Shown here piece after piece: positions 2,601 through 20,763 of a stretch of DNA of 33,273 bases. The notes below the pieces were generated by a model, which was not told where the DNA came from, made no database searches, and saw nothing but the letters and a program-made list of their open reading frames with translations. The stretch is from Actinomycetota bacterium (GTDB taxonomy: Bacteria > Actinomycetota > Thermoleophilia > Solirubrobacterales > Solirubrobacteraceae): contig WLOB01000007.1 of NCBI GenBank assembly GCA_009699505.1, positions 1-33,273 on the forward strand, given 5' to 3'. Every line of letters starts with the position of its first letter. The first letter of the stretch is position 1. The translations under genes were made by a program, and so were the position numbers.

Positions 2601-5273
2601 TCAGAGGTGGAGCTCGGGCAGCCGCTGCTCGAGCTCCAGGAGCGGCGCGAACAGGTCGCCGCGCCGGCGCACGCGCCCGAGCGTCTCGTCCGCCAGGAAC
2701 ACCAGCGTCCCGGGGTCGTCCGAGCGCTCGCACGCCTCGACCTCGTCCCAGTCCACGGGGGTCGAGACGGACGGTCGCTCGCGGGCCCGCAGCGAGTAGA
2801 CGCCGATCGTGGTCTTCGCCTGATCGTTCTGGCTCCAGTCGATGAGGACCTTCCGGTGGCGCAGCTCCTTGGCCATCTTCGAGACGACGAGGTCGGGGAG
2901 GTGCTCCTCGAGGAACCGCGCGAGCCACCGGGCGAACGGCTTCGTCTCGTCGTAGGACGCGTCGTCGGCCAGCGGGGCGTACATCTGCAGGCCCTTGGAC
3001 CCCGAGGTCTTGCAGAACGCGCGGATCTCGAACCGGGCCAGCACGTCGCGGACCGCGAGCGCCACGCGGCAGCAGTCGACGATGGAGGCGCCGGGTCCCG
3101 GGTCCAGGTCGAAGACCAGCGCGCGGGGGCCCGAGACGCCGTGCGGCGCGTCCGGCGCGCCGAGCGACAGGGACGGGTGCAGCTCGATCGCCGCGAGGTT
3201 GGCCGCCCAGAGGAGCGTCGGCAGGTCGTCGAGCAGGACGAAGTCCACGACGCCCTCCTTGCGGCCGTGCGGGACGGGCGTCGTGCGGACCCAGTCGGGC
3301 CGGTGCCTGTCGGCGTGCTTCTGGAAGAACGCCTTCTCGTCGACGCCGTTGGGGTAGCGCTTCAGCGTCATCGGCCGGCCGCGCCAGTGGGGGAGGGCGA
3401 CGGGCGCCACCGCCGCGTAGTACCGCAGGACGTCGGCCTTGGTGAAGCCGCCGGGGTAGAGCGCCTTGTCGAGGTTCGAGAGCTTGAGCGTGCGCCCGTC
3501 GACCTCGATCTCGACGCTCTTGCCCGACGACGGGATGAGCTCCTCGGGCTCGACCTCCGGCTCGTCGGGCTCGGGGACGTCGGGGACCGCGGGCGGCTCG
3601 GGCTCGCGGACGACGGCCGCCTCGACGGGCGCGCCCTTCTCGGCCCGGCCGCCGAGCGCCGCGGCGAGGACGTCGTCGGGGACGTGGTGGGGGTCGTCCG
3701 CCGCCGGTCCCGCCGCGGAGGAGGCGGCCGCCGGGCCCTGCTTCGCCGTCGACGCGCCCTTCGCCGTCGACCCGCCGCCGGACGCCGGGGCGCCGCCCAC
3801 CGCGTCCGTCTCGTCCTCGCCGACCGCCGGTCCCGTCGTCGCCGGGGTCTCCCGCACCACGTCGTGCGCGTCCTTGTCGTCGCGCAGGCCCTGGAAGGAC
3901 CCGTGGCGCACGGAGCCGTCGGACGTCCACTCCGCGAAGCGCACCTCGACGACGAGCGACGGCGTGCAGAACCGGGCGCCCCTCGGCGGCTGCCGGCCCT
4001 CGTACGGCGAGGTCCTGCGCTCGAGCCGCTCGAGCTTCGCGGTCAAGATCTTCAGGGTCTCCTGATCGAAGCCCGTGCCGACGCCGCCGGCGTAGCGCAG
4101 CGCGCCGTCCGCGTCGTACACGCCGAGCTGCAGCGAGCCCAGGACGCCCGCGCGGCCGCCCTTGCCGGGGATCCAGCCGCCGACGACGAACTCCTGGCGC
4201 AGCTCGTGCTTCACCTTGAGCCACGCGTCGGACCGGCGTCCGGGGCGGTAGATCGCGTCGGTGCGCTTGGCGATCACGCCCTCGAGCCCCTGCTCGGCGG
4301 TGGCGGCGAGGAGGCCCTCGCCCTGCCCCACGTACGCGCCGGGGGTCTGCCAGTGGTCGCCGTCCAGGCCGAGCTCCTCGAGCGCGGCGCGACGCTCCGT
4401 CCACGGCCGGTCGACGAGCGGGTGGCCGTCGAGCCACAGCAGGTCGAAGACCATGAGCGTCACCGGCCGCTCCTGCGCGAGGCGCTTCACGTGGGCGCCG
4501 CGGGCGTGCATCCGGGACTGCAGGGCCTGGAAGCTCGGGCGCCCGTCGTCGTCGAACGCCACGACCTCGCCGTCGAGGATCGCCTCGTGCGAGGAGAGCT
4601 GCCGGTTCAGGGCGCGCAGCTCCGGATAGGCGCCGGTGATGTCGTTCCCCGCCCGGGAGAACAGCGAGAACCGCCCCGGCTGCGAGCGGACCATCGCCCG
4701 GACCCCGTCCCACTTGACCTCGAAGGCCCAGTCGTCGGGCCGCGGGGGCAGCGTGCCGGGCCTGGCGAGCATCGGCTCGATCGCGGCGGGCATCTCCTCG
4801 GCCGTCTCGTCGACCGGCGGATCCATCCGGTGGATCATCCAGTCCTTCGGGTCCCTGCCCGCGTGGAACAGCGCGTACCTCCCCGTCAGGCGCTCCCCGG
4901 AGAACACGGCGATGATCTCGCCCTCCCGCCACTTCTCGACCTCGAACGTCCCGGCGTCCCAGATCGTCATCTCGCCCGCGCCGTAGTTGCCCTCGGGGAT
5001 CGTCTCCTCGAAGTCGAGGTACTTCAGCGGGTGGTCCTCGGTGTGGACGGCCTTGCGGTTGTGCCTCGGGTCCGTCGGGAGGCCGTTGGGGATCGCGAAG
5101 CTCGCCAGCGCCCCATCGTGCTCCAGGCGCAGGTCCCAGTGCAGCCGGGTGGCGTGGTGCTCGTGGACGACGAACCGCGGGGCGTCGGCCGGCGCGACGT
5201 CCTCGTCGCCCGACGGCTCCGGGGTGTCGGCGAAGGAGCGCTTGCGGCGGTAGTCCCTCAGCGGCTCGGCCAT
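2601..5273 (-). CDS. ligD: Multifunctional NHEJ DNA ligase LigD (phosphoesterase-ligase-polymerase order)
   Basis: PE domain (RFVVHEHHATRLHWDLRLEHDGALASFAIPNG), ligase motif (FEVKWDGVRAM), POL domain (KLSNLDKALYPGGFTKADVLRYYAAVAPVALPHWRGRPMTLKRYPNG). ORF open to 5294; start at 5273 (MAEPLRDYRRKR) preferred. Confidence 0.93.
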   Translation of the reverse strand: MAEPLRDYRRKRSFADTPEPSGDEDVAPADAPRFVVHEHHATRLHWDLRLEHDGALASFAIPNGLPTDPRHNRKAVHTEDHPLKYLDFEETIPEGNYGAGEMTIWDAGTFEVEKWREGEIIAVFSGERLTGRYALFHAGRDPKDWMIHRMDPPVDETAEEMPAAIEPMLARPGTLPPRPDDWAFEVKWDGVRAMVRSQPGRFSLFSRAGNDITGAYPELRALNRQLSSHEAILDGEVVAFDDDGRPSFQALQSRMHARGAHVKRLAQERPVTLMVFDLLWLDGHPLVDRPWTERRAALEELGLDGDHWQTPGAYVGQGEGLLAATAEQGLEGVIAKRTDAIYRPGRRSDAWLKVKHELRQEFVVGGWIPGKGGRAGVLGSLQLGVYDADGALRYAGGVGTGFDQETLKILTAKLERLERRTSPYEGRQPPRGARFCTPSLVVEVRFAEWTSDGSVRHGSFQGLRDDKDAHDVVRETPATTGPAVGEDETDAVGGAPASGGGSTAKGASTAKQGPAAASSAAGPAADDPHHVPDDVLAAALGGRAEKGAPVEAAVVREPEPPAVPDVPEPDEPEVEPEELIPSSGKSVEIEVDGRTLKLSNLDKALYPGGFTKADVLRYYAAVAPVALPHWRGRPMTLKRYPNGVDEKAFFQKHADRHRPDWVRTTPVPHGRKEGVVDFVLLDDLPTLLWAANLAAIELHPSLSLGAPDAPHGVSGPRALVFDLDPGPGASIVDCCRVALAVRDVLARFEIRAFCKTSGSKGLQMYAPLADDASYDETKPFARWLARFLEEHLPDLVVSKMAKELRHRKVLIDWSQNDQAKTTIGVYSLRARERPSVSTPVDWDEVEACERSDDPGTLVFLADETLGRVRRRGDLFAPLLELEQRLPELHL

Positions 5274-5350
5274 GTCGCTCGGTTCTACCCGCACGGCCGG
5301 GCCCCTGCACGTCGCGGGCGCGTACGGGGGAGGCGACCCCGCGTGCCAGC

Positions 5351-9567: not shown

Positions 9568-10377
9568 TCAGATCGAGACGACGGGGCCGCTGCGGGCGAA
9601 GATCGGGGCGAGCACTTCGGTCGGGCTGATCGACCGGAGGTAGAGCTGCGTGACGTCGAGGCGGGCGTGGCCGAGCTGCCGCTGGACGGCGAGCAGGTCG
9701 ATGCCCTCGCGCCAGAGCTCGACGGCGTGGGCGTGGCGGAGCTGGTGCGGGGCGATCCGCTTCCGGATGCCGGCCTCCTTCGCCTTGCGCTTGAGGTCGC
9801 GGCGCACGTCGGTGTGCGACCAGACGCGGGTGCCGGACGTCGGGCCCGTAATGACGCAGAAGACAGGGCCGGGCTCGAGCGACTGGCGGTACTTCAGCCA
9901 CGGCTGGACGCGGCTCCACCCCCACGGGTCCATCATCGAGACGCGGCGCTTGCCGCCCTTGCCGGACCGGACGACGATCGACCCGTCGTCGGCGTGGAGA
10001 TCCGACTCGTTCAGGGCGAGCGCCTCGCTGATGCGGAGACCGGTGCGCCAGAGCACCACGATGAGGGCGTGGAGGCGGAGACCGGTCGGACGGTCGCCGC
10101 AGGCGAGGAGGAGTCGGGAGAGCTCGTCGACGGACGGCGGGTCGGGCGGGTACGTCCGACCCTTCGACTTGGGGGTGCGGCCCTTGTGGTAGCCGGGCAG
10201 CGTCGCGAGCGGACGCTTGTAGCCGCGAGCGTCGAGGAGGTTGTGGTCCTCGATGTCCTGCACCAGGCGCAGGACGCCGGCGGGCGGGGCGGTCTTAGAG
10301 ACGGCGAGCTTGCCGTCGGTGTCGTGGTGGTCGCGGTCCGGGCCGTCGGCGACGGCGCTAGCGTTGTTGGTGATCAC
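9568..10377 (-). CDS. Second tyrosine recombinase (XerC/D-like)
   Basis: WRTGLRISEALALNESDL, GKGGKRRVSMM, IAPHQLRHAHAVELWREGIDLLAVQRQLGHARLDVTQLYLR: Arg, Lys, HxLR, GH and Tyr positions all present. Confidence 0.9.
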   Translation of the reverse strand: MITNNASAVADGPDRDHHDTDGKLAVSKTAPPAGVLRLVQDIEDHNLLDARGYKRPLATLPGYHKGRTPKSKGRTYPPDPPSVDELSRLLLACGDRPTGLRLHALIVVLWRTGLRISEALALNESDLHADDGSIVVRSGKGGKRRVSMMDPWGWSRVQPWLKYRQSLEPGPVFCVITGPTSGTRVWSHTDVRRDLKRKAKEAGIRKRIAPHQLRHAHAVELWREGIDLLAVQRQLGHARLDVTQLYLRSISPTEVLAPIFARSGPVVSI

Positions 10378-11332: not shown

Positions 11333-12037
11333 TCACGCGACCAGCTCCATGACGTCCTGGCGAGCCGGCCGGGCCCACCGGCGGGCCGGCTGCAGCGCGT
11401 CGATGCGAGCGGCCATCGCGCCCGGTGAGGTGGCGGCCTTGCCGCGCGACGGGATGGCGGCGTGGTTGCGCGCGACGTTGGTCGAGTCGGCCGAGAAGAA
11501 CGGGTAGGGCCCGTCGCTGAGCGCCAGGCCGCGGAGCATGTGGAGCCGGGTGCGCGGAACGCCGCGTTCGTCGCAGGCGACGTCCATCGTCTCGGCCATC
11601 CGGCGCGTCCACGGGCCGGTCCCGAGCTTGGCGTACATCGCCGAGGACCCGATGCAGACCAGCGGCCACGTCGCCACGAGGCGCGCGAGGCGGTCGAGCG
11701 TCTCGTGCATGTGCCAGACCGGGGCGCCGCGGCGACCGTGCGGCCACTCGTCGATGAGCTGGTCGTTGGCGTCCTCGTCGCCGTCGATGACGTCGGGGAT
11801 GACCGCCCACGTCGTCGGGACGTCGAGCCAGCGGGCGGACCACTCGTAGTAGGCCGGCCAGTCGGTGCGCTGCCCGCGGGTCCACGCACCGAACGCGCCG
11901 TTGTCGAGCATCACGCTCTGGCCGATCTCGTGGCAGACGTCGACGTCGCGCGGGTCGGCGAAGCTGACGCAGAAGCACCGACCCGCAAGCTCGTAGAGCG
12001 CCGAGCGCGGAGTGATCGGGGTGCCGTGGTAGTGCAT
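11333..12037 (-). CDS. DpdA-like (TGT-superfamily) 7-deazaguanine DNA transglycosylase candidate
   Basis: SVMLDNGAFGAW resembles the TGT base-recognition motif (T/L)DSGGF; AVIPDVIDGDEDANDQLIDEWP, PVWHMHE, CIGSSAMYAKLGTGPW, LHMLRGLALSDGPYPFFSADSTNVARN; ATGA-coupled to a YhhQ-like transporter. Confidence 0.7.
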   Translation of the reverse strand: MHYHGTPITPRSALYELAGRCFCVSFADPRDVDVCHEIGQSVMLDNGAFGAWTRGQRTDWPAYYEWSARWLDVPTTWAVIPDVIDGDEDANDQLIDEWPHGRRGAPVWHMHETLDRLARLVATWPLVCIGSSAMYAKLGTGPWTRRMAETMDVACDERGVPRTRLHMLRGLALSDGPYPFFSADSTNVARNHAAIPSRGKAATSPGAMAARIDALQPARRWARPARQDVMELVA

Positions 12038-12570
12038 CACCGGTCCCTCCACGCGAGCCCGACCGCGGCGGAGACCGCGGCCTTCACGACGACCTGGGCG
12101 ACGACGACGGTCCACAGGAACTCCCAGGAGACGATCCCGGTGGTCAGCGGCGACAGGCCGACGACGGCGAACAGGATCGAGTCGAGGGTGCCGCCGAGGA
12201 CGCCGGAGACGGCGACCCGCCGGCCGACGCTGCCGTGCAGTCGGGTGAAGACCTCGGTGTCGAGCGTCTCGGCGAGCGCGAACGACAGCGCCGACGCGAC
12301 GGTGACCCAGAGCAGGTCGTCGTAGGCGAAGCTGACCGCGACGTTGGCGAGCAGCGCGGCCCCGACGGCGGCGTAGGCCGCGGCGCGGCCGAGCCGAAGC
12401 TGCACGAGGTCGCGGAGCACGAACGTGGCTGCGATGAACCACGTCCCCCAGGTGACGACCCAGTGCTGGCCGAGGGCGTCGAACGACCACGGCGTCTGGG
12501 TCGCCGTGACGATGTTGGCGGTGACGATCGCGGCGACGTAGACCGCCGCGATCGCGAGTCCGATCCTCAT
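12037..12570 (-). CDS. VUT/YhhQ (QPTR) family queuosine-precursor transporter
   Basis: MRIGLAIAAVYVAAIVTANIVTAT...WGTWFIAATFVLRDLVQLRLGRAAAY...SALSFALAETLDTEVFTRLH...RVAVSGVLGGTLDSILF. Confidence 0.85.
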   Translation of the reverse strand: MRIGLAIAAVYVAAIVTANIVTATQTPWSFDALGQHWVVTWGTWFIAATFVLRDLVQLRLGRAAAYAAVGAALLANVAVSFAYDDLLWVTVASALSFALAETLDTEVFTRLHGSVGRRVAVSGVLGGTLDSILFAVVGLSPLTTGIVSWEFLWTVVVAQVVVKAAVSAAVGLAWRDR

Positions 12571-12604
12571 GCCTGGTCCTCTCGGATTGCCCTCGCAGTA
12601 GGGG

Positions 12605-15029: not shown

Positions 15030-15305
15030 CTAGGCGGCGCGGTGGTCTGCCGCTTCGCCCGCGGCAGCGGTGCCGGGCTCGGCCCGGAGGTGGTAGGTGG
15101 CGGTCCCGTTGGACTGCCGGACGGTGTCGATCCAGTAGCCGGCCTGACGGAGCTCGTAGACGCGCGCCGCGACCCGTTGGATCGGGGTGCCGCCGTCGAG
15201 CACGTCAGGTGCGGCGAACCGGGTCTCGTTGACGGGGCCGTTGCGCAGCGCCGCCAGCAGCCGCTGACGTTGCGTCGGCTTCCGGTGGAGCTGCGCGACG
15301 GTCAT
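15030..15305 (-). CDS. Small winged-helix-like protein
   Basis: MTVAQLHRKPTQRQRLLAALRNGPVNETRFAAPDVLDGGTPIQRVAARVYELRQAGYWIDTVRQSNGTATYHL. Confidence 0.65.
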   Translation of the reverse strand: MTVAQLHRKPTQRQRLLAALRNGPVNETRFAAPDVLDGGTPIQRVAARVYELRQAGYWIDTVRQSNGTATYHLRAEPGTAAAGEAADHRAA

Positions 15306-16850: not shown

Positions 16851-17305
16851 GCCGAGACCCCGCTCGTGCTCGCGGACTTCTCGATGTGCGCCTCGACGGC
16901 ATCGGCGGTCGCGTTGCCGGTGGCGGTCGAGCGCAGCGAGTCCAGCAGCTGGCCGCCGCGGTCGATCGACGCCTGGGCGTCGTCGTCGTCGTTCGGCTCG
17001 TCCTCGACGAGCGCCTCGGACTGGCCGGCGTTCCGGGCTGCGACCCGGGCGACGACGATCTCGTTGACCTCCGCGACGCCACGAGCGAACTCGATGAACG
17101 CCTCGTCGGGCACGACCACGCGGTTCTGCGCGGACCCGTCGGGGATGCCGCTGACGACGTGAGCGCCGAGGCCCTCGCGGTCGGCGTCGTAGACCTGCAC
17201 GAACTGCTGGAAGCCGAGGTCGGACTTGTAGTGGACGGTCGTCATGCCGTCCTGGTGGAAGACGCTGACGGTGCTGTCGGCTGTGGGGTTGTCGATGCTG
17301 CTCAT
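16847..17305 (-). CDS. Hypothetical phage protein
   Basis: 152 aa ORF MSSIDNPTADSTVSVFHQDGMTTVHYKSDLGFQQFVQVYDADREG... Confidence 0.65.
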   Translation of the reverse strand: MSSIDNPTADSTVSVFHQDGMTTVHYKSDLGFQQFVQVYDADREGLGAHVVSGIPDGSAQNRVVVPDEAFIEFARGVAEVNEIVVARVAARNAGQSEALVEDEPNDDDDAQASIDRGGQLLDSLRSTATGNATADAVEAHIEKSASTSGVSA

Positions 17306-17340
17306 GGGTGCTCCGGGTTTCGGATGGGCCGCGCCGCCGG

Positions 17341-17436
17341 TACGATCCGGGGTGCGGTGACTGCTTTTGCGGTGCCGCGATTCACTGGCTGTGGATCTGC
17401 CGGCCTGGACTTCGCCCGTCGAGGCCGGCCTTGTTT
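17341..17436 (+). ncRNA. Candidate small antisense RNA or attenuator in an operon gap (speculative)
   Basis: TACGAT (-10-like, 17341-17346) followed by GCCGGCCT...AGGCCGGC hairpin (17399-17429) and TTGTTTC; no convincing -35. Confidence 0.25.
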
Positions 17437-17603
17437 CAGCGGGGGTGCAGGTGGCGGCGGGTGAAGAGGTCGCCGATGTGGCGGGGCCTCACGCTCTGGA
17501 TGTCGAGCGCGTCGGCGAGCTGCTCGCGGACGACCTGGCGCTTGACGTACTGCGCGGCGGCGTGGCGGGCGTGCTGCTCGAGCCGCTCGGTCGTGAGCTT
17601 CAC
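17436..17603 (-). CDS. Small hypothetical phage protein (GTG start)
   Basis: VKLTTERLEQHARHAAAQYVKRQVVREQLADALDIQSVRPRHIGDLFTRRHLHPR; GTGA overlap with 17600..17818. Confidence 0.5.
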   Translation of the reverse strand: MKLTTERLEQHARHAAAQYVKRQVVREQLADALDIQSVRPRHIGDLFTRRHLHPR

Positions 17604-17818
17604 GCGACGGCCCCGACGGGATCGGGGTCGCCGACCTCGTTCGTGCCGATCCACTGCGAGATTGCCTCGCGGTGGGCCTCGCCGATGCCGAGGCCGCGGA
17701 TCGCGGCATGCTCGGCAAGGGCGCTGAGGTGGTCGACCCGGGCCTTGAACGACACGACCTTGGTCGGGCCGTGGAGAAGGTCCGCGGGGTGCGGGGCCTG
17801 CCTTGTCGGTGTGCTCAT
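17600..17818 (-). CDS. Small hypothetical phage protein, first gene of the leftward early operon
   Basis: MSTPTRQAPHPADLLHGPTKVVSFKARVDHLSALAEHAAIRGLGIGEAHREAISQWIGTNEVGDPDPVGAVA. Confidence 0.6.
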   Translation of the reverse strand: MSTPTRQAPHPADLLHGPTKVVSFKARVDHLSALAEHAAIRGLGIGEAHREAISQWIGTNEVGDPDPVGAVA

Positions 17819-17899
17819 GGGGAGCAACCTAGCATAAGAGAAAGGAAAAGCGCAAGGGTCAAAGCAGGAGAACTTGCAGAAGGGAAAGCCGACGGGCCG

Positions 17900-17912
17900 T
17901 AACCTGCGCCCG
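17900..17912 (+). promoter_or_regulatory. Leaderless-type promoter of the repressor gene
   Basis: TAACCT (17900-17905) + 6 nt + GTG start at 17912. Confidence 0.45.
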
Positions 17913-18403
17913 TGCTCCCGATCGGAAGCCGCATCCGAGTGCGGAGGCTGGAACTCGACCTGACTCAGAAAGAGCTCGGGGAAGCCGTTGGCGACGGGGT
18001 CAGCAAGCAGACCGTGCGCAACTGGGAGGCTGGCCGTTCGGAGCCGACGAAACACAGCGCGGACCTAGCAGCAGCGCTGCAGTGGACCGAAGAAGAGCTC
18101 TGGGCCGGCCCGCCACCGCGGCGAGCGCAGGGCCCGAGGCGCGGCCCTCGGCGCCCAACCGCCGACGAGCGGTTCACGGACGCAGTCGGCGAGGGCCGCA
18201 GCAGCACCAAAGACCTCTTGCGCCAGGTCCGGGAGAGAACCCCCGACCGGCCGTTCCTCGCCTACCCCGAGCAACCAGCCACTCGCAGCGAGGTCGACGA
18301 GCTCCGCGCCCGCCTCGACAAACTCGAAGCCTGGGTCCGCGAACAGGACACCACCGCCACCGCAGCAGTCGACGACGCGGACGACCTCACCGCCGACGCC
18401 TAG
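17912..18403 (+). CDS. XRE-family HTH transcriptional regulator, probable prophage repressor
   Basis: IGSRIRVRRLELDLTQKELGEAVGDGVSKQTVRNWEAGRSEPTKHSADLAAALQWTEEELW; divergent from early operon. Confidence 0.88.
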   Translation: MLPIGSRIRVRRLELDLTQKELGEAVGDGVSKQTVRNWEAGRSEPTKHSADLAAALQWTEEELWAGPPPRRAQGPRRGPRRPTADERFTDAVGEGRSSTKDLLRQVRERTPDRPFLAYPEQPATRSEVDELRARLDKLEAWVREQDTTATAAVDDADDLTADA

Positions 18404-18457
18404 CCGCCTCGCGAGCGCGCACCTGGGCGCCCGCTCGCGCGCACGCGCGAGGCGGTG

Positions 18458-18508
18458 GAGAACGAGAACGAGCTTGAGGTTGAGTTCGAGCTTGAGGTAG
18501 AGGTGGAG
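18458..18508 (+). repeat. (GAGNNN)9 hexanucleotide-phased repeat
   Basis: GAG at 18458, 464, 470, 476, 482, 488, 494, 500, 506. Confidence 0.85.
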
Positions 18509-18510
18509 GC

Positions 18511-18732
18511 GGTAGACCCTTCGAAGGGTCTACCTGAGTCCAGGTAGTGCCTTCGAAGGGGCTTCGAAGGCACTTCGAAGGCACTCGGAAGCCCCTTCGA
18601 AGGGGCTTCGAAGACTCTCCGAAGGGGCTTCGAAGGCACTACCTGAGTCGAGATAGACCCTTCGAAGGCACTACGGAAGACCCTTCGAAGGCGCTTCGAA
18701 GGGTCTACCTGAGCGCAGATAGACCCTTCGAA
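18511..18732. repeat. Composite palindromic iteron array: 11 TTCGAA units (mostly 11-bp phase) plus 3 CTACCTGAG-type inverted-repeat linkers
   Basis: TTCGAA at 18520, 552, 563, 574, 596, 607, 629, 661, 684, 695, 727; degenerate units TCGGAA at 18585 and TCCGAA at 18618 keep the 11-bp phase; 24-bp perfect palindrome 18511-18534; 22-bp perfect palindrome 18588-18609. Confidence 0.95.
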
Positions 18733-18741
18733 GACCCTTGG

Positions 18742-18960
18742 TCAGGCGCCCGGAGGCGCCGGCCTAGAGGCGACGCGGTCGAGGATGGCGAGCATCCTCT
18801 CAACGCGTTCCTCGGGGACACCACACAACGCCAAGCGCTGCCGACGCTGCTCCTCGATGCCCGCGCGACGCATCGCCCGGAACACCTGGCGCTCAGCCTC
18901 GAGCGCCTTGACCTGCATGCCGAACCGGCTGTCGCCGGGGTCCTGAATGGTCGAGGACAT
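18742..18960 (-). CDS. Small hypothetical protein
   Basis: MSSTIQDPGDSRFGMQVKALEAERQVFRAMRRAGIEEQRRQRLALCGVPEERVERMLAILDRVASRPAPPGA; convergent with the repressor. Confidence 0.55.
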   Translation of the reverse strand: MSSTIQDPGDSRFGMQVKALEAERQVFRAMRRAGIEEQRRQRLALCGVPEERVERMLAILDRVASRPAPPGA

Positions 18961-19095
18961 GTCGTCTCCCGTCCGGCGTGGCCTCCATCCCCACCCTGGT
19001 GTGGGTGACCCCGCCGCCGGGCCACATGACGCCCCCCGTTACAAGAGCGCCGCGACGAGAGAGATGACCGTGCCAGCCGCTCCGGACGGACCTCG

Positions 19096-19107
19096 GAACG
19101 TGTGTTC
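19096..19107. promoter_or_regulatory. SOS (LexA/Cheo-box-like) palindrome GAAC-GTGT-GTTC
   Basis: cctcgGAACGTGTGTTCgct matches GAAC-RNRY-GTTC; sits between the 18742..18960 (-) and 19229..19978 (+) genes. Confidence 0.55.
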
Positions 19108-19115
19108 GCTTGGCG

Positions 19116-19142
19116 CCCTGCAGCTCCCCGGAGCATGCAGGG
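19116..19142. other. Strong hairpin in intergenic regulatory region
   Basis: CCCTGCA-GCTCC-CC-GGAGC-a-TGCAGGG, 12 paired bases per arm with one bulge. Confidence 0.7.
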
Positions 19143-19216
19143 GATAACCGATGTAAACCAATCGGTCGTCCAATCGAACACCGGACGAACGTGGGGGAGT
19201 GCCCCGGCTGGGCCGC

Positions 19217-19229
19217 TACTCTGCGCCGA
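19217..19229 (+). promoter_or_regulatory. Leaderless-type promoter of the lipoprotein gene
   Basis: TACTCT (19217-19222) + GCGCCG + ATG at 19229; same spacing as the repressor gene. Confidence 0.45.
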
Positions 19230-19978
19230 TGCGTAGTCACCGTCCCGTCCTGTACCTCATCGCAGTCGCTGCCCTTGGACTCGCCGGCTGTGGCTCCAAC
19301 GACGAACCATCCGCCCCCGTGGGAACCCAAGCTCAAGGGGCTGTGACCACCGTCAGTGCCGAAGAGGCGCCCGACCCGACGAGCGAGATCCGCGGCGTCG
19401 CGGATCGGTTCTACTCGGCCTACGACGCAGGTAAGTGGGACGAAGTCTGCGGGCTCATGGCCCCGAGCGCGAAGGCGCAGCTCGCGCAAGGGGCCGCCTT
19501 CCTTGGCACGAAGCCCGGGGATTGTGCTGGCACTGTCGCCGCAGCTTCAACGGCGGCGGGCAGTACCGGGCCGTCGAAGCCGAACGTAACGACGGTGAAG
19601 GTGGATGGCAGCAAGGCGGTCGCACCTGGGGCTCAAATGCAGGACGGCAGCCCTGCGGATCTAGCGTTTGAGAAGGCCGACGGGAAGTGGTTGATCGCTG
19701 CAGATCCGGAGGAGGAGGGATCGAGCGGCGAGGGCTTGCGCGCTCGCGTGCAGGAGTGGCCGAAAGCCTGGTGTCAGCTAGACGCGGGTGCCTCTCGCGA
19801 AGAACTCCGCAAGGCGCTCGGGAAGCCGACGGGCGGAACGGACGATCAGGACTCGTGGGAAGGCTTCGGGCTCGCGCTGACCGCCTTCTATGACGCCGAT
19901 CTGACGTCGTACCAGCTGCAGGTCGGCGAGGGCGATGTGCCCTGCGCCGACGTGCGCAAGGCCGCCGGCCGCGACTAA
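19229..19978 (+). CDS. Prophage-encoded secreted lipoprotein (candidate lysogenic-conversion/exclusion factor)
   Basis: MRSHRPVLYLIAVAALGLAGCGSNDEPSA signal peptide with LAGC lipobox; then NTF2/SnoaL-like helix ADRFYSAYDAGKWDEVCGLMAPSAKAQL. Confidence 0.8.
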   Translation: MRSHRPVLYLIAVAALGLAGCGSNDEPSAPVGTQAQGAVTTVSAEEAPDPTSEIRGVADRFYSAYDAGKWDEVCGLMAPSAKAQLAQGAAFLGTKPGDCAGTVAAASTAAGSTGPSKPNVTTVKVDGSKAVAPGAQMQDGSPADLAFEKADGKWLIAADPEEEGSSGEGLRARVQEWPKAWCQLDAGASREELRKALGKPTGGTDDQDSWEGFGLALTAFYDADLTSYQLQVGEGDVPCADVRKAAGRD

Positions 19979-20763
19979 CCGTTCTTCTGGCAGTAGTCGG
20001 TGATCGGCCGCGGGTCCTGCGACCCGCGGCCCTGCAGACCGAACCGGCCGTCGTTGACCATGAAGTGCACGTGCCACGCGTTTGCGAAGCCCGCGTGGCC
20101 GAGCACGTCGCCGGCCTGCACGACCTGGCCGACGCGCACCCGCGCGCCCTCGGCGTGACCGAACCCGAGGTGCAGGCCCTTCTTCAGCGGCCCGACCGTC
20201 TCGAGCAGCTCGACCTGGATGATGCCGTCACCGTCGGAGACCGGGTGGCCGCCGGACGGCTGGGCGCCCTTGCCCCACCAGCCGGAGCTGCGCACGTCGA
20301 TGACGCGACAGCGCGCCGGCGCGTACAGCAGCGCGTTCGCCGGGCAGATCAGGTCGATGCCGTCGTGGACCGGCGGGTGCCAGCCCCACGAGTCCTGCGT
20401 AACCTTCGCGACCAGGCGGTGCACGCCGGGCTCCGAGGCCTGCTCGAGACGCTTGACCAGCCGTCGGCGCCAGTCCGCGCGGACGTGGTACCTCTCAAGC
20501 TCGGCCGACGAGAACCGCTTGTTGCGGATCTTGATGCGCAACTCCGGCGTGATGCCGCCCTCGAGCGCGCCGGCGGCAATGCCGTACCCGTACGCGATCG
20601 ACGCGGCGAGCGACCGGTCACCGACGCCATAGGCGCCGGACTCGGGGTGCCGGTACGTCTTGGCGCCCCAGCCCTGCAGCACCTTGTTCATGGTGCGCTC
20701 CCACCCGGCGACGTCCTCGCCGCGCATGGGCGGTGTCGTGACCTTCAGCGTGCGGGAGCTCAT
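19975..20763 (-). CDS. Endolysin with M23 (LytM-type) peptidase domain
   Basis: VHDGIDLICPANALLYAPARCRVIDV...LHLGFGHAEGARVRVGQVVQAGDVLGHAGFANAWHVHFMV; N-terminal peptidoglycan-binding-like segment. Confidence 0.85.
   Translation of the reverse strand: MSSRTLKVTTPPMRGEDVAGWERTMNKVLQGWGAKTYRHPESGAYGVGDRSLAASIAYGYGIAAGALEGGITPELRIKIRNKRFSSAELERYHVRADWRRRLVKRLEQASEPGVHRLVAKVTQDSWGWHPPVHDGIDLICPANALLYAPARCRVIDVRSSGWWGKGAQPSGGHPVSDGDGIIQVELLETVGPLKKGLHLGFGHAEGARVRVGQVVQAGDVLGHAGFANAWHVHFMVNDGRFGLQGRGSQDPRPITDYCQKNG

Follow-up and report, generated by a model that had tools for sequence, protein, structure and literature searches.

In phage lambda, 19-bp iterons lie inside the initiator gene, gene O, and are accompanied by an adjacent 40-bp AT-rich region, and the iterons of plasmids are generally phased with the helix (PMC5043065). 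ParR–parC has been described as well (PMC9426499). Here we compare these systems with an array found in the window, that is, the whole 33,273-nucleotide stretch of DNA that was analyzed, which is one entire contig; the genome is fragmentary, being split into 533 contigs and 75% complete. An earlier examination of this DNA, referred to below as the sequence-only reading, had interpreted the array as a cooperative protein-binding locus, such as a centromere or a replication origin, or as a multi-hairpin structure.

Architecture and setting of the array

The array, as assembled, comprises 229 bases of a prophage and resolved, with zero remainder, into 18 near-identical modules, three linkers and one extra G. 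Each module is an 11-bp GAAG-NNN-CTTC unit, and TTCGAA arises where modules abut; the linkers, of 10 bp each (n = 3), follow the pattern CTGAG(NNN)AG. The sequence-only reading had taken TTCGAA as the repeat unit. Its 11 perfect sites were all present where it had placed them (11/11), but the unit is better given as GAAG-NNN-CTTC, of which 18 modules, together with the linkers and the extra G, fill 18512-18740 exactly. The parts of the array, none of which is assigned a strand, are as follows.

18512..18740, no strand: whole phased array (exact decomposition, TTCGAA positions, phase 10.9 bp, R 0.97)
18512..18533, no strand: modules u1-u2 (GTAGACCCTTC, GAAGGGTCTAC), which with one flanking base per side form a 24-bp perfect palindrome
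18534..18543, no strand: linker 1, CTGAGTCCAG, which with the flanking CTAC/GTAG arms forms the 'B' element 18530-18547
18544..18642, no strand: modules u3-u11, nine in an unbroken 11-bp register; u7-u8 form a 22-bp perfect palindrome, 18588-18609
18643..18652, no strand: linker 2, CTGAGTCGAG, from the module decomposition
18653..18674, no strand: modules u12-u13 (ATAGACCCTTC, GAAGGCACTAC), followed by the extra G at 18675
18676..18708, no strand: modules u14-u16, from the module decomposition
18709..18718, no strand: linker 3, CTGAGCGCAG, from the module decomposition
18719..18740, no strand: modules u17-u18, from the module decomposition

The linkers and the two palindromes reported earlier (24 bp at 18511 and 22 bp at 18588) were all found in the sequence. 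Module arms facing a linker read GTAG/ATAG or CTAC, and GTAG/ATAG arms occurred beside linkers only. TTCGAA was present 13 times in the whole window; shuffled sequences predicted 3.1 occurrences, and none of them had as many as 13. With degenerate units included, the start-to-start spacings of TTCGAA were 32, 11 (seven times), 32, 12, 11, 11 and 32 bp, and the 11 perfect sites shared one helical phase (coherence R 0.97, period 10.9 bp), in agreement with the earlier statement that the units lie about one helical turn apart. The module centres fell into few, recurring classes (GGT, GCA, GGG and their complements), and GGG or CCC occupied the centre in only 4 of the 18 modules. In the nine inner modules, 3 of the 72 arm positions departed from GAAG/CTTC, as against 8 of the 27 centre positions from GGG (Fisher p 0.001). 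Such a pattern of conserved arms and variable centres is expected if the arms were contacted and the centre left free, but this test is suggestive only, because there are few modules and they are in part copies of one another. The GC content of the array (~0.58, compared with 0.71 for the genome) is among the lowest in the prophage.

The left part of the window carries apparent host genes encoding two Ku proteins (474-1340 and 1340-2542) and LigD (2601-5294). The second Ku gene has a low-complexity tail, in which long tandem repeats with periods of 18, 36 and 90 were seen at 1433-1719. The prophage extends from the integrase (9568-10377) to the right edge of the contig, where the contig end cuts it. 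Its genes include those for SSB, a DNA methylase, a VRR-NUC nuclease, a RecT-like protein and the XRE repressor, as well as M23 endolysin-like, baseplate, tape measure and tail sheath genes; a winged-helix protein (HTH_39 match) is encoded at 15030-15305. The region 11333-12579 has a gene for a queuine tRNA-ribosyltransferase-like protein (PHROG 887), beside a weak match to a queuosine-precursor transporter (Vut_1 / TIGR00697, below cut-off), and may be a prophage island for 7-deazaguanine modification of DNA. The features closest to the array are the following.

17600..17818, minus strand: 72-aa product of the first early gene, possibly a ribbon-helix-helix (RHH) protein
17912..18403, plus strand: XRE-family repressor-like protein, upstream of the array (HTH_3 8e-10; PHROG repressors)
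18404..18455, plus strand: inverted repeat of high GC content (CCGCCTCGCG ... CGCGAGGCGG), immediately beyond the XRE stop codon, read from the sequence
18458..18511, plus strand: purine-rich hexanucleotide tract (GAGNNN)x9, with G-rich skew, directly abutting the array
18742..18960, minus strand: 72-aa ORF of uncertain gene status, its stop codon 1 bp beyond the array
19199-19978, plus strand: lipoprotein-like gene without a family match, between the endolysin and the array

The hexamer tract had gone unmentioned in the sequence-only reading. The inverted repeat at 18404-18455 may be the XRE gene's own terminator hairpin, without a U-tract. Searches for families and for relatives of the 72-aa ORF at 18742-18960 gave zero matches, and the earlier placement of the array between convergent genes holds only if this family-less minus-strand ORF is a gene; if it is not, the array lies between two plus-strand genes, those of the XRE repressor and the lipoprotein-like product. 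The latter may be a lysogenic-conversion gene. A tRNA search found none and the integrase sits at 9.5 kb, which removes a tRNA or an attachment site from the candidates.

Occurrence of the repeat in other phages and genomes

Within its own genome, the core palindrome CCTTCGAAGG was confined to the array, as a single locus, and so was the linker element, whose further degenerate matches were merely at control level. The search of related prophages that had been proposed with the earlier interpretation returned nothing: repeat scans of 13 regions near baseplate or RecT homologues in relatives detected zero comparable 11-bp arrays, and a 19-bp pattern of the array was found in 0 of 298 related genomes. 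No meaningful match to the array was obtained among phage and plasmid records, and a literature search for the repeat sequence returned zero papers. The linker element matched 95 stretches in IMG/VR, and at none of the loci checked did TTCGAA or module repeats adjoin it. One locus met in that search, on an unrelated viral contig (L378:2834-3076), carries tandem repeats of CTACCTGAGTTCAGTTAGAACATAT.

A scan of IMG/VR with the two-unit motif CTTCGAAGGNNCTTCGAAG detected 117 stretches, 106 of which lie within one phage gene family; of the other eleven, ten are viral loci that lack the gene, and in one (L113) the array lies outside it. When three units were required and the centres left free, IMG/VR yielded 15 stretches, all of them (15/15) within the same family. 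Its members share the protein pattern MRDY..FW.GKTGK.LR...GFEGASKGLRR...APSKPLRSQEQEQE, and PHROGs names the family (PHROG 1701) a DnaD-like helicase loader or replisome organizer. PHROG 1701 genes with 11-bp GAAGGGGCTTC arrays are found at IMG/VR loci L203-L282 (genes) and L008-L124. A second scan, at the protein level, yielded 80 loci, or 57 once near-duplicates had been removed. At two array sites, the codons for Gly, Ala, Lys, Leu, Pro and Ser were near-fixed to those that build GAAGGGGCTTC or its complement: GGG was used in 44/44 cases (background 0.23), CTT in 39/44 (0.14), CCC in 26/26 (0.23) and AGC in 26/26 (0.26), where the background is the mixed usage elsewhere in the same loader genes. 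The second array site is free of search selection, because it was absent from the protein-level query; the codon p-values overstate independence, because the counted sequences come from related phages. The synonymous codons thus show constraint on the DNA itself. The loader genes often contain two arrays ~250 bp apart, with AGGAAC-type hexamers after the second. We infer that these arrays are iterons placed within a gene, as those of lambda ori are within gene O, and the GAAGGGGCTTC arrays in PHROG 1701 genes likely represent an in-gene origin of replication. The window aside, the DNA-level constraint predicts, for many phages, an origin that could be tested directly.

Similar arrays also occur outside loader genes. 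Three viral examples lie near a replication initiation protein gene (L092), directly after a helicase/primase-like gene (L116) and, together with a hexamer tract, next to a head gene (L015); an array with an adjacent hexamer tract is thus common to the window and to IMG/VR arrays elsewhere. Dispersed intergenic 11-bp TTCGAAG arrays were also observed in the chromosomes of unrelated bacteria: a single Bacteroidetes genome has ~50 such loci, and Verrucomicrobia and Bacteroidales have several each. The ~50 copies in Bacteroidetes GWE2_42_24 (G303, L183-L202) are an extended palindromic element on 11-bp TTCGAAG repeats. Since these short chromosomal arrays are dispersed intergenic repeats that are not known to be linked to replication, the motif alone is no proof of replication.

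Possible functions of the array

The interpretation that we favor, with a probability of roughly 0.4, is that proteins would bind the array cooperatively and in phase with the helix, and that it would most likely be an origin of phage replication of the iteron type. Each 11-bp module would be one site for a dimeric DNA-binding protein, with GAAG/CTTC arms and a 3-bp centre that is not contacted, and the sites would stand in tandem and in helical phase. The 10-bp linkers would hold the register, so that bound dimers would be placed on one face of the DNA, which might be wrapped or bent. The likely purpose would be an iteron-type origin for replication of the temperate phage, similar to lambda ori but intergenic. 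Protein binding, the identity of the binder and the start of replication at the array are all inferred, and the candidate binders suggested by the gene content are the 17600-17818 product, the winged-helix protein at 15030-15305 and XRE. Phasing across the linkers, the arm/centre pattern and the presence of the motif in phage replication genes support the cooperative binding proposed earlier. The origin reading was chosen because the same repeat recurs in the replication genes of many other phages, and this recurrence is circumstantial support for the origin or iteron option named in the sequence-only reading.

A profile search of the six-frame ORFs of the window for a loader-family homologue gave zero matches, and no other initiator was recognised among the scanned prophage ORFs. 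We assign the array to neither of the families that it resembles: no initiator of the family was detected in the window, and two features, a place in the initiator gene and a fixed centre, are lacking. As the centres are GGGG-conserved in the loader genes and variable in the window, the protein that binds the array is probably a different one. There was no strongly AT-rich stretch at the array that would serve as an unwinding tract, no turn in GC skew at the array (GC skew was uninformative), and no DnaA box of the TTWTNCACA or TT(G/C)TCCACA type in the window. A broader proposal, which we regard as quite doubtful, is that phased 11-bp GAAG-NNN-CTTC arrays of a single kind, recognised by proteins that are either related or convergent, would be a replication-initiation platform both in the loader genes of many phages and, in expanded and intergenic form and with an initiator of an unrecognised family, in the window prophage. 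If true, such arrays, often beside hexamer tracts, would be a compact and searchable origin signature for uncultured temperate phages, and a new family of initiators would be reached through a prophage in which the scanned ORFs revealed no initiator.

The strongest rival to the origin reading, unlikely but deserving serious attention, is a selfish or neutral palindromic repeat, i.e., a slippage-expanded palindrome or a REP-like insertion at a harmless gene end that would be functionless for the phage. The dispersed TTCGAAG arrays of Bacteroidetes (~50 loci in one genome), Verrucomicrobia and Bacteroidales fit this explanation, as do the few recurring centre classes, which duplication predicts, the microsatellite-like hexamer tract adjoining the array, and the GTAG/ATAG linker-facing arms, which resemble the tag of GTAG REPs (PMC3733652). 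However, the array is a single locus: CCTTCGAAGG is found nowhere in the genome outside it, and 0/298 relatives have the 19-bp pattern; conserved arms with variable centres are not predicted by neutral slippage, and the helical register is kept by the 10-bp linkers. Membership of a REP family was rejected, as dispersed copies were not found in the genome and the palindrome and linker are confined to the array. An RNA-level element, a transcribed multi-hairpin that would terminate or stabilise transcripts of one or both flanking genes, appears improbable. Folded as RNA, the two strands of the array were far more stable than dinucleotide shuffles (z -10.8 and -11.5), the array directly follows the stop codon of the minus-strand ORF, as REPs do near gene ends, and the minus strand turns two arm mismatches into G-U pairs. 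Yet the real fold was no better, and mostly worse, than those obtained when module order or centres were shuffled (z +0.5 to +1.9), no U-tract (intrinsic) terminator was detected in 17000-20500, the array had no Rfam match, and XRE seems to be served by its own hairpin at 18404-18455. Tandem palindromes of any order would give the strong fold, with long hairpins as a by-product, and there was no sign of selection for a long hairpin. A selected long hairpin or cruciform as the main signal was rejected on the module-shuffle controls. As shuffling the modules did not make the fold worse, the multi-hairpin option of the sequence-only reading is weakened, and DNA sites explain the array better than a long hairpin.

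RHH proteins typically bind tandem, phased sites that are spaced by about one turn of the helix. The array would fit such a protein, as a centromere-like or regulatory array comparable to ParR/parC or MetJ boxes, and the candidate is the 72-aa product of 17600-17818, whose predicted two-helix layout would suit an RHH fold. We consider this distinctly improbable: the model has low confidence (pLDDT 66) and was too poor for a fold search, the family evidence is a CopG-like PHROG at E 0.25 only, with no Pfam match, and the array is not at a promoter. A partition ATPase was recognised in none of the scanned prophage ORFs, although the contig end cuts the prophage, and the integrase argues against a centromere, since it makes partition unneeded. 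The centromere option of the sequence-only reading thus gained no support beyond one weak RHH-like neighbour. An operator array of the XRE repressor is very improbable; the XRE gene adjoins the array, but the array lies downstream of both neighbours, and the XRE/early promoter region (17819-17911), where an operator would be expected, contains zero module-like sites. The XRE operator was rejected on this lack of matching sites at its own promoter. Overall, the earlier interpretation is partly supported, and the specific functions remain putative.

Comparison with known systems

GTAG-tagged REPs and BIMEs are, like the array, palindromic, intergenic and near gene ends, and the arms beside the window linkers are GTAG-like, but REPs are dispersed in multiple copies, whereas in the window there is one locus only, and it is phased at 11 bp. 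In ParR/parC and MetJ-box RHH arrays, too, the sites follow one another at about one turn of the helix, a layout that suits cooperative binding; unlike them, the array is off a promoter and is accompanied by a weak RHH candidate and no recognised partition module. The arrays of PHROG 1701 loader genes are short, in-gene and conserved in their GGGG/CCCC centres, in contrast to the intergenic array of the window, which has 18 modules, variable centres and three linkers but lacks a loader gene; the hexamer tracts of the two also differ, in that their purine-rich strands are oppositely oriented. Both are nevertheless built of 11-bp GAAG-NNN-CTTC tandem modules, four window modules being exactly GAAGGGGCTTC or its complement, and in both a hexanucleotide tract adjoins the array. 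Lambda ori differs in its 19-bp in-gene iterons and its adjacent 40-bp AT-rich region, neither of which was seen in the window, where the array is neither in nor beside a recognised initiator gene and has the XRE repressor gene and a family-less ORF as neighbours. What the array would share with lambda ori is a temperate phage, repeated palindromic sites for an initiator dimer, and several phased repeats of one putative site, which in the window number 18 modules at 10.9 bp.
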